Below, one piece after another: positions 31,018 through 38,090 of a stretch of 50,556 bases of DNA (position 1 is the first letter of the stretch; the number at the start of each line of letters is the position of its first letter). The stretch covers positions 1-50,556 of the forward strand of contig JANWVZ010000003.1 in NCBI GenBank assembly GCA_025056555.1. The letters run 5' to 3'. Made by a program: the position numbers and the translations under genes. The stretch comes from Gemmatales bacterium (GTDB lineage: Bacteria; Planctomycetota; Planctomycetia; Gemmatales; HRBIN36). The notes under the pieces were generated by a model that was not told the DNA's origin, searched no databases, and was given only the letters and a program-made list of their open reading frames with translations.

Positions 31018-31216
31018 ATTTCCTCTCCTTCTGGTGAAGTTATTTGGAATTGCGTCGCAGAAAGGTTAGTTATGCCATCAGAGAATTCAAGCCCTGGGCT
31101 AGACAGAGGGAAACAAGCGGGGGGGCAACACCGATGGGCCTTTGCCCATCTTGGCAGTGCCGACTCAGCCGTTGAACCTCGTATCGCGGCTTCGCCGAAT
31201 CGAGGCGGAGAATCCG

Positions 31217-32398
31217 TCAGGGTTCGGCTGGCCTGACAGCAGTGATGCGTTTGACCAGCATGGTGGCATAACAACCCCGCGGCAGAACACATTGCAGATA
31301 CAACTTGCGCTTGCCGCTCTGGAGTTCGTCCTGTTCGAGCTGGTAGGCCAAATCCTGCGGGAAAAACACTGCGGCGCGTTCTCCGCGCGAGAAAAACGGC
31401 TTGCGAAAATGGCGGAGGCGCAATTGGCGTAGCGTGATTTTTTCGGCCGCCAGAACATCTTCGAGAATCGGCCGCAGCGGATGATCTTCCACGAGTTTAA
31501 GCCGCGCGCTCAGGTAGGGTATCTGCAACGACTTCAAGGCGTGCCGTTGTTCAGGATTCAGTTGCCGATAAAACCACACCGGCCCCGTCTTTAATTCCAC
31601 CTCCCAGAGTTGTTGCGGTCGGCAATGTAATTCGAGCCAACGGCTCAGACAGCGGTTCCACAGGTAGCTTTGGTAGGCCGACAAATACAACGTTTTCAAT
31701 TCCATGTGCAGGCAGGCAAAGGCGCCGCGAAAATCCTGAGGATGGTCGCACAGATAACTGATGACGCTACGCACGTTGCCGCGGGGTAACTGTTCTTTGA
31801 GCTGCGACCAGTTCCCCCATTGCTTGCGGAGCAATTCCTTGAGTTTTCGGATTGAGCTGCGGTCGTGCTCGTGCGGTGCGCTGAGGGCCAGTTGAAGGGC
31901 CGTTTCGTAATCTTCGTGGATGAGATACCAAGCAATGAAACGCCGCTCCGGCGTGACCGAACCAAACCGCTGATCGTCGAAGTAATTAGGCACCCCATCC
32001 TGCTGCAGTTGCTCCAGACTTTCAAGGGCCAGCCGTGCTTCCGCGGCAGAGAGATCGCGAATTGTGATCGCGAACCGATTGCCGGTCACCAGTTTCGGAC
32101 CATACGGAACCCCGATTTGCCCCAAATAATGCAGATGCAGGTGCGTCTGTTTCAGGCCCCGGCGGGGACCGTGGAGAATACTGAGATACTGCGTGGTGCT
32201 GGCATGACGATCTTTGAGCCCCCCGTAGCCGATACGCCAGCGCGGGATTTTCCATTTGCGGCAAATGGCGTCGAGCGCCTCGGGAGTACCGAGCGACTCC
32301 TTCTCCAGGCGATAAAAGGCATAATTGCCTTCGCTGCCGGGCTGGACAGCGGTAAGTTCTTCGACGCGGAAATCCTGCGGTAGTTGTTTGAGTTTCAT
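31217..32398 (-). CDS. truD: tRNA pseudouridine(13) synthase
   Basis: GYGGLKDRHASTTQYLS; NYFDDQRFGS; YQSYLWNRCLSRWL. Confidence 0.93.
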   Translation of the reverse strand: MKLKQLPQDFRVEELTAVQPGSEGNYAFYRLEKESLGTPEALDAICRKWKIPRWRIGYGGLKDRHASTTQYLSILHGPRRGLKQTHLHLHYLGQIGVPYGPKLVTGNRFAITIRDLSAAEARLALESLEQLQQDGVPNYFDDQRFGSVTPERRFIAWYLIHEDYETALQLALSAPHEHDRSSIRKLKELLRKQWGNWSQLKEQLPRGNVRSVISYLCDHPQDFRGAFACLHMELKTLYLSAYQSYLWNRCLSRWLELHCRPQQLWEVELKTGPVWFYRQLNPEQRHALKSLQIPYLSARLKLVEDHPLRPILEDVLAAEKITLRQLRLRHFRKPFFSRGERAAVFFPQDLAYQLEQDELQSGKRKLYLQCVLPRGCYATMLVKRITAVRPAEP

Positions 32399-32534
32399 GG
32401 TGGAGAGTCAGGCAACGACTGCCCAGCTTCGGTACGTCCGATTGCCCATCATGGTCGCGGATACCGTTACCCTGGAGCGTCGGGTTGTGCTACTTGGCAA
32501 GCCCAATCAACCGAAGTCCTCCCGGAACTAAAGT

Positions 32535-32603
32535 AAAAAGGCCGAGGGAGCGGTCTGAGACCGGTCGCCCAGGCAGCCCCAGAGGTAACCGCATCCCTCG
32601 GCC
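32535..32603 (-). ncRNA. candidate small RNA: near-continuous hairpin followed by U5
   Basis: - strand TTGCCC(32637-32632)-16 nt-TATAAT(32615-32610), then GGCCGAGGGA(U)GCGGU...ACCGCUCCCUCGGCC-UUUUU ending ~32535. Confidence 0.6.
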
Positions 32604-32609
32604 ACTGGT

Positions 32610-32637
32610 ATTATAGACCCACGCCCAGTGGGGGCAA
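32610..32637 (-). promoter_or_regulatory. predicted sigma70-like promoter for the candidate small RNA
   Basis: TTGCCC and TATAAT boxes with 16-nt spacer; stem starts 7 nt after TATAAT. Confidence 0.5.
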
Positions 32638-32917
32638 GCATCGCCACCGCGAATTTTCCGAGTTCCATGACTCATCAGTCCGAGCTCAGTCCGCGAGAAG
32701 TCTTGCGCTCTGCGGGGTGGGCGTCCTGGCTTGGGTTCGGTTCCCGCAGGTCGAGTCTCGCGTGGCCTGCGCTGCTGAATCTGAAGCGCGCCATAGAACT
32801 CGTTTGGGTGCGGCTGCAACTTGTCCCCCAGGGTTCGTTGGGCCTGAGAATTATAATAGTGTGTCCCTGGCCCGGCGTTAGCGCCCCGAATAAGCCCCAC
32901 ACCGGCAGAGGTGCATC

Positions 32918-33295
32918 ATGGCTATTCCACAGCAGCCGGTACCGCGGAGGAACGTGATTTTCGTCATCCATCCGTATAAGTATCACGGCACCTGGGTGTT
33001 CGACGACCCGGACAGGGGCCTCAGCAAAGAGCCCTTTGTCGCAGGGGCCGATGTGGTCCTCGACCGCATTACCGCCCATATCCCGGAGGCTGAGCATGGC
33101 GTCACGATATTGTTTTCCGATCAGCCGTTTCCAGGGTATGAGCATGAGTTTGTGTGGATGCGCGACGAATTCGGGGGCGCCTGGTATACCGACCCGCGCA
33201 CTGGTCAGGAAGGCTGGCTCTGTTCGGCATTACTGCGTTACTTTCCCGAACCGCCGCCTCGGCTATACGTCCAAGTCCAGCCCAGAAAGAGTTAG
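32918..33295 (+). CDS. DUF6717-like small protein
   Basis: IHPYKYHGTWVFDDPDRGLSKEPFVAGADVVLDRIT...PGYEHEFVWMRDEFGGAWYTDPRTGQEGWLCSALLRYF; RBS agaggtg. Confidence 0.7.
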   Translation: MAIPQQPVPRRNVIFVIHPYKYHGTWVFDDPDRGLSKEPFVAGADVVLDRITAHIPEAEHGVTILFSDQPFPGYEHEFVWMRDEFGGAWYTDPRTGQEGWLCSALLRYFPEPPPRLYVQVQPRKS

Positions 33296-33439
33296 GGTTT
33301 CGCTCTGCCGCCCAATTAACCCACCAAGTGTAGCCGCGCGCATTTTCTCTTCGGCGATTGTACCACCCGCATGTCGCATTTGAGCCGAGGGACCAGCTAT
33401 GCGGGAGGCTCCGGGCTTCGATGCGGCGGGAAACGATCG

Positions 33440-34645
33440 CTAGGGCGCCTGAACTTTCCGGATTTTGCGTTCGGCTTCGCGTTTGAGTTGTTGGTCGCGA
33501 TGGCTGGGAGAAGCGAGCTCAATGGCTTTTTTCCAGGCCGCCACCGCCTGTTCCCGTTCTCCCAAGGCCAGGTGCACATCGCCGAGGTGATCGTAGAGTT
33601 CCGCATGCTGCCCATCTGGTAAGGCCACCGCCTGCAACAATAGTTTCTTCGCCTCCGCATACTGTTTTTTCTTGTAATAGACCCAGGCGAGGCTGTCCAG
33701 ATAAGCCGCGTTTTCAGGTTCTTTCTCCAGGGCCTTGCGGATCATTTTCTCGGCCTGGTCGAGGTTGCGATCATGATCGACCCAAATGTAACCGAGGTCG
33801 TTGTTATACGTCGGATTGTCCGGCTCTTTCTTGAGCAGGACTTGCAGGTATTCGGTGGCTTTATCCACATCGTTCATTTCCGCATACAGGCTGCCCAGCT
33901 GATAGCGAATGAAATCAGCAACTTTTTCGTTATTGGCTTGGGCCAGGGCCTTCTGGTAGAGATCGGCGGCTTTGCCGTACTGGCCGGTGAAACGAAGCAG
34001 CCAGGCCTCCCGCTGGAGGATGAGGGGGTGCTCATCGAGCCCGCGAACCGCCTTGAACTTGGCGAGGATATTGTTGGCATCGTCGAGACGGTTCAGGTAG
34101 GCATAGACGATGATCATCTGCAGGGTGACGAAGATTTTGCGGCTTTCCATTTCTGGGGTGCTCGCTTCCATTTCGAGGATTTCCCGCCCTAAGCGCTCGG
34201 CCTGGGCGAACTGGCGCGTGCGCATGGCCAGGCTCATCATCAGTTCCCGCAGCTCAAACTCGCGCATGGTACTCTTGATCAACCGCGCACGCTCCATCAG
34301 GAAGCGATAGAGTACTTCGGCACTTTGGAAGTCGTGGATTTCGTCGCACAGGTGCAGCACAATATAGGCGGCGTTGTAACCCAGGGGGCTGTCCTTCTGC
34401 TGGGCCAGTGCCACAGCTGCCTGCACCAGTTCCTTCAGTTGCTGGCGGGTGCGTTCGCGACTGAGCCGCTCAATGACAGCTTGAATCTGGTCGGTGCCGG
34501 TGATTTCGTCGAGTTTCAGCACCTCCAGTTCCCGATCGTTCCGCGGCGCGAGGTGGGCAACCGCCGCGGTAGCCCCCCCATGCAGCAACCCCACCAGGTA
34601 CAGGGCAACCGTCACCATACCAGATCGGTACATGATGGCCTCCAC
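33440..34645 (-). CDS. TPR-repeat secreted protein
   Basis: YNNDLGYIWVDHDRNLDQAEKMIRKALEKEPENAAYLDSLAWVYYKKKQYAEAKKLLLQAV; signal peptide. Confidence 0.88.
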   Translation of the reverse strand: MEAIMYRSGMVTVALYLVGLLHGGATAAVAHLAPRNDRELEVLKLDEITGTDQIQAVIERLSRERTRQQLKELVQAAVALAQQKDSPLGYNAAYIVLHLCDEIHDFQSAEVLYRFLMERARLIKSTMREFELRELMMSLAMRTRQFAQAERLGREILEMEASTPEMESRKIFVTLQMIIVYAYLNRLDDANNILAKFKAVRGLDEHPLILQREAWLLRFTGQYGKAADLYQKALAQANNEKVADFIRYQLGSLYAEMNDVDKATEYLQVLLKKEPDNPTYNNDLGYIWVDHDRNLDQAEKMIRKALEKEPENAAYLDSLAWVYYKKKQYAEAKKLLLQAVALPDGQHAELYDHLGDVHLALGEREQAVAAWKKAIELASPSHRDQQLKREAERKIRKVQAP

Positions 34646-34892
34646 TTCCTTCAGGACAAAGGGTTTGCCCTCATTATAAGCTGGGTAGACTTTTCCTTGC
34701 GCGGACGATGCGGACCAGCCGGGCGCACTCGGCTTGAGACGCTCGTCGCTGGCCAGGACCTCCGTCTCCTCTGACTATGCTAATCAATACCAAGTCTTTT
34801 GGCCAAGAGCAATTAGCCTGAACGGTGCTGCGGACCTTGCTCCCAACGGTTGACGCGCGATAGCGTCCAACCTCTGGAACCGACCTGTCGCT

Positions 34893-37800
34893 TCACGGCG
34901 CCGATTCTTCCCGACTTGGTGTGGCATCTTTACGGTTTCGCTCGCGCACGAAACGGTTGCCCTGAAGCACGTAGCCCGCATCCCTCAATTGTTTCTGCGT
35001 CCAAAATAACCCGGATCCCGTAGACATGTTAAACAGGCCCTGACGAAATCGCACGCCCCATCGGTTCTCGCCGGTGGCTTCGTTGACCAGCACAGGGACA
35101 CGGCGGTAAATGGCTTTGGTCAGTTCAGCATCCTGTCGGGTGCGGAAAATCGGGCACGTCCTGGTGTTGGGGTTGATCAAGGTGAAATCGTGGGCCGTAA
35201 GCGCAAAGCGTCGCCCTTCATCGCGAAGGTCGCGTGCGCGGCTCAGGAAAAATGCCAGCACAGGTCCCTCGGCGTCGGATTCGTGCTCGGCGGTTTTGTC
35301 TGCGGTGTTCGGCGGTTTCCCATCAGATCGGCGCAGCGTCATCAGGCAGAACTTGTAGCTTCGGTGGACACCGAGGAAGACGCCTTCTTTATTCTCAAAA
35401 TCGAACAAACTGACGAGTTGGCCAGTTTGCACCAGATGATTGAAAAACTCCCGGTTGTTGACATCGGTAGCGATGCCGCTAGGAATGACCACACCGGCCC
35501 GTCCCCCCGGAGCGAGGAGACGTAAGAAGAGTTCTGCGAAGACTGAATAGTAATTGATACGCCCTGATGAAGTCATGGCGAAGCGTCGAGAGCTGCGCAG
35601 ATACTTGCGTAAGGCATCAGCATCATGAAGTGCCTGCTGATAATCTCGCCACAGGGCTAAGTTTCTTTTAGGCAAATCTGAAATTAGTCGTTCACGTATT
35701 GCCTTATTTGCTGCGGTGGCAATTTCGGCATCGCGTGTTGCGAAGAAGACTTGTTCCTCAAGCTGTATTAGTTCCCAAGGGGGATTGCATAAGACGACGT
35801 CGAAGCCGCCTTGGAGAAAGACGTCGGGAAACTCCAGAGGCCAATGGAAAAACCGCAGGCGCTGGGCTAATTGGTCGGCACTGGCCAGAGGAGCGCCCAG
35901 AGCAGGACCCTGAGAGCGGAATTGACACAAGGTATCGGTGGTGATGACCGCGGCTCGGTCTAAAGTCTGGTCGCGGGCCTGAAAGAAAGCGGCCACATAG
36001 AGATCGCACAGCTGGCGCTGAGGTCTGGCATGCTTGTGCCAATCCTCGAAACGCTGCTTCTTATCGCGCACCACCTGCGGCGAGTCGTCGGCCAGGCGCG
36101 CCAGGGAGGAAAGTTCCTGCGCCAAGGGGGCTAACTCCTGGGAGGTAAATAGCAGGCGCTTCTGGCCTCGGACCCGGTCCGCCTGTTCCTGGCGATTGGC
36201 CTTCCTGATGGCGCGGGCTAATGAGGGATCATCGCCACTGACCGGGTCGAAAGCCGTGTTAGGGATACCGTCGTTCAGAACGGTCCAATCCAGAACTCCG
36301 ACGAGCGAATCGCCACAGCGGATGCGATGGTCGAGGAAGGTGAGGGGTTTGTGCGGAACGTGGCTTTCCAACCAGAGGGCCAGTTTACACAACTGGACAG
36401 CCAGAGGGTTCTTATCCACCCCGAAAATGCAGTGGGCAATGACGTCGCGAATAGCGACGCGCTGAGCTTCGGGAGCGGGCTCTTCGTCGCCAGTACGAAT
36501 CCGCGCCAGTTCTTTGCCCAGCCGTCGTGCCGCCGCCAGCAGGAAATGTCCCGAGCCGCAGGCGGGGTCAATCACCTTGATCTCCAGAAGTGCTTTTTCC
36601 TTGTCGGAAGGATTGGCCAGAGACTGACAGCGTTGATAGAGGATCGGCTCCAGGGCGCTGCGCACCAGCTCCTGCACCAGTTCCGGCGGGGTGTAATACG
36701 ACCCCGTGGACTTGCGTTGCGTGCCCCGCTGAAAGGTAAACTCCCAGCTTCCGGCCTCGGTTCGGAACACCGGGTGATTATCGAGCAGACTTTCGTATAC
36801 CGAGCCGAGTTCCTCGACATCCAGAGCGGCATAATTGACGCGACGAATACTGTGCCCGGCACTTTCGTCGTGGTAATAAATCAGGTGCCGCACCGCCTGT
36901 AGCAAATCGCGATTAGCCAGGCAACACTCATCGAACACAATCGGGTCAAAGAGTTCCCCATCCAGGACGGGCAATCCCAGCAGCGAAGCCAGGGGTTGCC
37001 CTTGCAATTCGGCACACGGTGTACCATCCGCCAGCAGTTTCCAGAGCAGACACAGTCCCCACCAGAGATCCCCGTCGTCGGTGTAAGCGCTTCGCCGGTC
37101 GACAAGCCGGCGGAAACGGCTCACGCCGTAGTGTTCGCGGTACAAACGATGGGCACCGAGCAAGCCCCGGTCTTCGCACACCAAAAGGAACAGCAGCCGA
37201 TAAACCAGGCAGAGCAAATCGCGATAAAACTCCAAAGCCGACAACGCTTCGCCGGAAGCGTTGGCACACTGGCGGGGATCAATCCGACGACGCAGTTCGC
37301 TATTGGCGGGATGCCGGAGAAAACCATTGGCCAGGGTCTGCAGGCATTCTTCAACGCCTTCCCGCAACCGCTCGCGGACACGACTTCCCTGCTCAACCGA
37401 GTTGCGATAGTAGACTTCCAAGGGGCAGGCGTCAATCTGGGCCTCCGCCACGGGCAAGCGGGTGCGGTGCACCAGCCGGTAGAAGACGTTGAAATCCAGA
37501 AAGAGCTGTTCCTCGAAGATGCGAGCCAGGTCGAACTCGATGTAGGCCAGGCGCCGAATGTACGAGCAATCGCGGAGAACTCGCAATACCAGGCCGTTAG
37601 TTACCAGGCCCCAGAGGTGCTCGGTGCGATTGAGAAACTGCTGGAGCAAGGAATGGGGAGCCAGGCGTGGCCGACCGCTGGGCGGAACCTTTCCCAGTTC
37701 CTGACGCGCGCCGACGATGTGCACGGGGGGCGCCCACGCCTCTGCCCCGGCCCGATGGGAAATGGGATAGATCTCCTGCTCCACCTGGTAGGGACGGCTG

Positions 37801-38090
37801 TTGTAATGCAAGTCGTAGCCCAGCATGCTGAACAGGGGGACTACCCAGGTATCGCGCGTGACGGAAGTAGCGCTGTCCTGAGGCGGCAGCCGGGCCAGAC
37901 GATTCTGAAACACTCCCCATTGCGCCCGTGCATCTGCGAAAATGGCTGCGATTTCCTCCGTGAGCGGGCGCTTCTCCGACAGGCCGAAATCTCGGGCCCG
38001 CTGATAGTCCAGTTCGCCTTGGAGCAGGCGTTCCAGCAGATCGGCACTGAAAAATCCGCCCTCAATGCGCACGGCGGGAAAAAGACTCAT
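34893..38090 (-). CDS. Eco57I-like N6-adenine DNA methyltransferase, apparently C-terminally truncated
   Basis: KVIDPACGSGHFLLAAARRLG (motif I), FDVVLCNPPWE (NPPW), ISHRAGAEAWAPPVHIVG N-terminal region; ends ...LFWTQKQLRDAGYVLQGNRFVRERNRKDATPSREESAP*. Confidence 0.9.
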   Translation of the reverse strand: MSLFPAVRIEGGFFSADLLERLLQGELDYQRARDFGLSEKRPLTEEIAAIFADARAQWGVFQNRLARLPPQDSATSVTRDTWVVPLFSMLGYDLHYNSRPYQVEQEIYPISHRAGAEAWAPPVHIVGARQELGKVPPSGRPRLAPHSLLQQFLNRTEHLWGLVTNGLVLRVLRDCSYIRRLAYIEFDLARIFEEQLFLDFNVFYRLVHRTRLPVAEAQIDACPLEVYYRNSVEQGSRVRERLREGVEECLQTLANGFLRHPANSELRRRIDPRQCANASGEALSALEFYRDLLCLVYRLLFLLVCEDRGLLGAHRLYREHYGVSRFRRLVDRRSAYTDDGDLWWGLCLLWKLLADGTPCAELQGQPLASLLGLPVLDGELFDPIVFDECCLANRDLLQAVRHLIYYHDESAGHSIRRVNYAALDVEELGSVYESLLDNHPVFRTEAGSWEFTFQRGTQRKSTGSYYTPPELVQELVRSALEPILYQRCQSLANPSDKEKALLEIKVIDPACGSGHFLLAAARRLGKELARIRTGDEEPAPEAQRVAIRDVIAHCIFGVDKNPLAVQLCKLALWLESHVPHKPLTFLDHRIRCGDSLVGVLDWTVLNDGIPNTAFDPVSGDDPSLARAIRKANRQEQADRVRGQKRLLFTSQELAPLAQELSSLARLADDSPQVVRDKKQRFEDWHKHARPQRQLCDLYVAAFFQARDQTLDRAAVITTDTLCQFRSQGPALGAPLASADQLAQRLRFFHWPLEFPDVFLQGGFDVVLCNPPWELIQLEEQVFFATRDAEIATAANKAIRERLISDLPKRNLALWRDYQQALHDADALRKYLRSSRRFAMTSSGRINYYSVFAELFLRLLAPGGRAGVVIPSGIATDVNNREFFNHLVQTGQLVSLFDFENKEGVFLGVHRSYKFCLMTLRRSDGKPPNTADKTAEHESDAEGPVLAFFLSRARDLRDEGRRFALTAHDFTLINPNTRTCPIFRTRQDAELTKAIYRRVPVLVNEATGENRWGVRFRQGLFNMSTGSGLFWTQKQLRDAGYVLQGNRFVRERNRKDATPSREESAP

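Follow-up and report, generated by a model that had tools for sequence, protein, structure and literature searches.

Decoy RNAs of the CsrB/RsmZ type titrate a single RNA-binding protein by means of a repeated loop motif, GGA being the recognition core of CsrA, and plasmid antisense RNAs carry U-turn (YUNR) loops. 6S RNA (RF00013), recognized as a long rod of about 180-200 nt with a central bubble, and bacterial SRP RNA (RF00169) are both rod-like. In Listeria, the LhrC family comprises seven stress-regulated siblings of 105-121 nt (LhrC1-5, Rli22 and Rli33-1), whose C-rich UCCC motifs base-pair with their mRNA targets, frequently at the ribosome binding site, in an interaction reported to be Hfq-independent (PMC8079631). 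The small RNAs of planctomycetes are almost unstudied; a candidate structured RNA, the Rhodopirellula-1 motif, is listed for Planctomycetes and Proteobacteria (PMC2864571).

Here we describe a putative small RNA of the planctomycete order Gemmatales, the representative of an apparently undescribed family that, as far as its sequences have been seen, is found in this order only. The family is not described in the literature that we searched, an earlier mention being possible, for example in subscription papers or in the 2017 Weinberg survey of 224 motifs. The analysis started from a stretch of 50,556 nucleotides from a Gemmatales bacterium, hereafter the window, in which the candidate locus occupies positions 32535-32637 of the minus strand. 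Its features, in the direction of transcription, and the neighboring genes are as follows.

32648-32663, minus strand: operator-like site ACTCGGAAAATTCGCG, separated from the -35 box by 10 nt and agreeing with the consensus YGTCGGAAWTTTCGGC at 11 of 16 positions
32632-32637, minus strand: -35 box TTGCCC, of which TTGCC is also kept in the congener
32610-32615, minus strand: -10 box TATAAT, identical in the congener and placed relative to the rod as in most family members
32535-32605, minus strand: gene of the small RNA, its transcript predicted at about 69-71 nt (covariance models and fold, below)
32594-32603, minus strand: 5' arm of the outer stem, GGCCGAGGGA, from the fold; this is family helix 1, in which 11 of 11 pairs change on both sides
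32588-32592, minus strand: 5' arm of the second stem, GCGGU, pairing with 32550-32554 in the fold
32564-32571, minus strand: invariant core of the apical loop, UGGGCGAC, an order-specific enriched motif
32550-32554, minus strand: 3' arm of the second stem, ACCGC, from the fold
32540-32549, minus strand: 3' arm of the outer stem, UCCCUCGGCC, from the fold and the covariation of family helix 1
32535-32539, minus strand: U tract (T5) of the intrinsic terminator, from the sequence
31217-32398, minus strand: truD, encoding tRNA pseudouridine synthase D (PF01142, E 1.2e-68), downstream of the RNA gene
32918-33295, plus strand: DUF6717 gene (PF20475), between the RNA gene and the TPR gene
33440-34645, minus strand: TPR gene, the nearest upstream gene on the minus strand, beyond the DUF6717 gene

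Farther upstream, the minus strand (34893-38090) encodes a 1065-residue protein that carries Eco57I/N6-methylase domains and is probably a restriction-modification enzyme resembling type IIG.

An earlier note on this DNA had proposed a TTGCCC-16-TATAAT promoter followed by a hairpin and TTTTT, and all of these elements were found at the bases given there. The promoter matches 10 of 12 consensus positions, with a 16-nt spacer between the two boxes and 6 nt (ACCAGT) from the -10 box to the rod, and is the only promoter-like site that was found within 31200-34700. The rod itself is a hairpin of 64 nt (32603-32540, minus strand) with a predicted folding energy of -42.4 kcal/mol, compared with -29.3 +/- 3.1 for shuffled sequences (z -4.23; all 200 shuffles less stable). 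The outer stem and the GCGG/CCGC stem drawn in the earlier note were recovered in this fold, the apical pairing being predicted slightly differently. The U tract ends about 136 nt before the start of truD. A hammerhead-like CUGAUGAG farther upstream (about 32671-32678) has no match in Rfam and was dropped.

The suggestion that no known family fits, and specifically that the RNA is not SRP RNA, 6S RNA or tmRNA, was borne out. A cmscan search with Rfam 15 gave no match at the gathering threshold in the window or in eight relatives, and permissive scans (E up to 10) yielded only chance matches far below gathering, among them one to ZNFX1-AS1 (12.5 bits, against a gathering score of 45). The locus matches neither RF00169 nor RF00013, and the genome has its SRP RNA (G000:C353:8584-8680, E 1.1e-9) and its 6S RNA (G000:C199:27594-27788, E 1.8e-10) elsewhere; tmRNA was excluded by both Rfam and ARAGORN.

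Only one other genome of the genus was available among those searched, the Gemmatales metagenome-assembled genome SKYB77 (G001). There the element, with 89% identity over 87 nt, lies about 185 nt before truD; TTGCC, TATAAT and a 34-nt apical block are unchanged, and the flanks toward truD have diverged. The second stem is kept there in a shifted register (GGAU/AUCC). This pattern of conservation indicates more than chance. Beyond the genus, nucleotide BLAST recovered chance pieces only, and structure was needed to find relatives.

Upstream of truD, other Gemmatales encode rods with different stems, a shared apical core, CUGA-N-UGGGCGA-C, and a U tract. Seven such sequences from Gemmataceae were aligned without reference to structure, leaving out the window and its genus (alignment A5). 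In this alignment 96.4% of the cells pair and nine pairs show double changes, compared with 4.6 +/- 1.3 in shuffled alignments; when the partner is shifted by one column, pairing falls to 51-58%. Of 102 Gemmatales genomes searched with a covariance model built from A5 (R1), 46 gave a match. R1 located the window copy exactly where the earlier note had placed it, with no other match in that 3.8 Mb genome (E 1.9e-4), and it likewise hit the copy of the congener at its proper position (E 3.0e-5). Since neither the window nor its genus had contributed to R1, this result is an independent test of what the earlier note had found. A second model, R2, matches the window with an E-value of 1.3e-9, and the family was enlarged to 137 distinct copies. 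In an alignment of 65 clean copies (A7), 95.5% of the cells are paired, both sides change in 23 of 24 pairs and 356 cells show double changes, against 83 +/- 13 in shuffles; A7, like A9, was fitted to the model, which favors structure and loop, while A5 and the count of the bare loop motif (below) are free of this effect. The paired arms, whose covariation had been named as a check, are thus conserved and strongly covarying, and the element is almost certainly a real, conserved RNA, as judged by comparison of sequences. The earlier note was right in seeing a real RNA element upstream of truD; the multi-copy family spanning the order, the invariant loop and the conserved link to truD had escaped it.

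The stem sequences of the family vary freely, and 136 of the 137 copies retain UGGGCG as the loop core. The base that precedes this core is A in 74 copies, G in 27, U in 23 and C in 12. The family loop is ANUGGGCGA and the window version is CCUGGGCGA: relative to CUGANUGGGCGACRG, the window and its congener have the core UGGGCGAC with CC in place of AN and one extra C. The loop contains a UNR U-turn sequence (UGG). Mimicry of, or pairing with, ribosomal RNA was considered and rejected: UGGGCGAC is present in one 23S rRNA and absent from the others, and the 23S rRNA of three genomes showed no conserved sequence complementary to the loop in a reading of both senses, as no signature confirmed the orientation of these loci.

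R2 detected copies of the family in 65 of about 102 Gemmatales genomes and in 10 of about 296 other genomes of the class, the latter matches all being weak. The remaining 37 of 102 Gemmatales genomes have no match at an E-value of 0.01, perhaps in part owing to strict filters. A search of 294 genomes of the phylum returned only the window and six weak matches of 31-42 nt, and matches outside the order in general, 31-63 nt long and with E-values of 5e-5 or worse, were taken to be chance terminators. The same limit emerges without any structure model: by our own tally, the bare loop motif CTGANTGGGCGACRG occurs 122 times in the order, against 14 for the reversed control, and 35 times in the rest of the class, against 33. 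With up to 12 candidates scored in each genome, the number of copies per genome is a lower bound in each case; it reaches at least nine (G069), and Gemmata-like genomes carry several stand-alone copies. A mobile or phage element is not indicated, as blastn gave no match in plasmids or phages, a search that reaches only fairly close DNA.

Across the family, the spacing between the -10 box and the rod has a bimodal distribution, being either 4-9 nt (type B, the majority of copies) or 28-40 nt (type A, including many of the truD-linked copies in Gemmataceae). The window copy, with its sigma70-type promoter 4-9 nt before the rod, is of type B. Promoter scores of at least 9 were obtained for 21% of the copies and for 1.6% of shuffles. 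The gap of type A holds a 5' hairpin of varying sequence (mean z -2.8, compared with -0.1 for the same stretch in type B), followed in 18 of 24 cases by a GAUG-type linker. Many type B or stand-alone copies are preceded by a dyad operator, YGTCGGAAWTTTCGGC, present in 65 of 98 copies and in 4 of 98 shuffled controls, which mostly ends 8-10 or 38-41 nt short of the -35 box, on its upstream side. Strict matches to this operator number 12 in 13 genomes, and about half of them lie at RNA genes of the family. In the window, the operator-like site has the same spacing to the -35 box as in stand-alone relatives, and the congener has no clear site; that the window site is genuine is only weakly suggested by its sequence. 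In type B copies such as L226, L108, L256, L113 and L125, the DNA before the -35 box carries the dyad in tandem form, CCGACA-N13-YGTCGGAAWTTTCGGC.

In about 25 cases, truD follows the RNA gene in the same orientation. In several of them only 10-20 nt separate the RNA from the start codon, which leaves too little room for another promoter. Among 80 TruD loci from named genomes, 13 contain 14 matches, each of which precedes truD on the same strand, with none in the Isosphaeraceae loci of the set. Besides TruD itself, almost all genomes of the order encode a more divergent TruD-like protein (residues 2-147, about 30-38%; for example, G000:C88:25232-25681). In one genome (G066; L097 1465-1540 and 1650-1725), two tandem copies lie directly upstream of truD, each with its own 5' hairpin, their stems different and their loops the same. 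At 14 loci (L068, L069, L072, L076, L078, L079, L080, L081, L085, L088, L089, L091, L100 and L118), some of them without adjacent truD, the gene before the RNA, in the same orientation, encodes a lipoprotein with an alpha/beta-hydrolase-like GFSAG motif. The stand-alone copies have no neighbor in common, and many of them face a convergent gene downstream, both observations resting on crude gene calls; such an arrangement argues against a common target in cis.

Taken together, these sequence data make it reasonably likely that the element is an autonomous, Hfq-independent small RNA that shows its invariant loop to a conserved partner in trans, the copies at truD serving additionally as leader-terminators. 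Transcription would proceed from the RNA's own sigma70-type promoter, starting at or just before the first nucleotide of the stem, and the product would fold as a single rod. The outer stem and the U tract would serve as the RNA's intrinsic terminator, and hardly anything except the apical loop and the U tail would remain unpaired. We infer that the loop is the working part of the molecule, which probably grips one conserved partner in trans, either a protein, which could be sequestered or guided, or a complementary RNA, which would be contacted loop-first. A protein is slightly favored, as the loop and its closing CUG/CRG pairs are invariant on any stem, and the UNR U-turn sequence would allow a kissing contact. 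Because the truD-adjacent copies lie in the truD leader, expression of truD there would depend on read-through of the RNA's terminator. Hfq, which has to be present in the cell for an Hfq-dependent small RNA, was found in none of 61 Gemmatales genomes, compared with 5 of 14 control genomes (PF17209).

A special case of action in trans, tentatively entertained here, is that the copies titrate a loop-reading RNA-binding protein in the manner of CsrB or RsmZ. The invariant loop on a freely varying stem, the several copies per genome, the shared operator and the scarcity of other unpaired sequence would suit such a decoy, although the loop lacks GGA and each RNA offers one site rather than many. 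More doubtful is the broader proposal of a regulon extending across the Gemmatales, in which the tiny RNAs of a cell, nine or more at the upper end, would be under joint control of the tandem operator and would present one invariant loop to one RNA-binding protein or RNA partner, the truD-linked copy also acting in cis with this loop on truD read-through.

It is unlikely that the rod is, instead, simply a cis-acting leader, a transcription attenuator of truD whose loop is recognized by some factor, possibly TruD, with the effect that termination changes and the level of read-through into truD is set. The position of truD directly downstream, on the same strand and often with only 10-20 nt from the U tract to the start codon, agrees with this scheme, but many copies are nowhere near truD or are followed by a convergent gene, several stand alone in Gemmata-like genomes, and the very stable rod shows no evident antiterminator fold.

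That the element is an ordinary intrinsic terminator next to a chance promoter, with no function as RNA, is very improbable: the stem and U tract are indeed terminator-like, but the near-invariance of the loop core and the promoter at a fixed distance in relatives speak against it. In the window no co-oriented gene lies directly upstream, and the possibility of a plain terminator of an upstream minus-strand gene, raised at the outset, does not hold, given the intervening opposite-strand DUF6717 gene and the relatives with promoters directly before the rod. A micro-ORF in which NUG-GGC-GAC would be a start codon followed by a Gly-Asp peptide is hardly credible either, for while the frequencies of the first base rank in the order expected of start codons, the third positions of GGC and GAC are practically invariant, unlike those of coding sequence, neither frame nor length is conserved after the loop, and the stems carry indels.

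The family provides a defined RNA that exposes one accessible and invariant loop, with which its partner can be fished out directly, and the operator and the multi-copy spread make regulation and evolution testable in cultured Gemmata-type strains. If the regulon proposal were true, this would be a post-transcriptional circuit independent of Hfq, of which none is described for the phylum in the literature searched.

Among known RNAs, those introduced above come closest to the Gemmatales family. The Rhodopirellula-1 motif is set apart by its listed host range alone, the Gemmatales family not being seen outside its order. 6S and SRP RNAs are likewise rod-like, the Gemmatales RNA being shorter and without their features. 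As in the plasmid antisense RNAs, the U-N-R of the loop (UGG) can present bases for a kissing contact; unlike in these, the Y is not kept, any base being found at this position, the genes are chromosomal and multi-copy, and no cognate antisense or target loop was found. With the CsrB/RsmZ decoys the family would share the titration of one RNA-binding protein by a repeated loop motif, but sequestration of CsrA calls for several A(N)GGA loop motifs, and each Gemmatales RNA has a single UGGGCGA loop without GGA. The parallel with LhrC is that both are multi-copy small RNAs showing short conserved loop motifs; the Gemmatales RNAs differ in consisting of a single rod of about 60-75 nt (about 115 nt with the 5' hairpin), in their G-rich loop and in their number, up to at least nine copies, and they belong to another phylum, with no sequence relation seen. 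While thus showing no relation to known multi-copy, loop-bearing small RNAs such as LhrC, the family may, by analogy, work in the same way.
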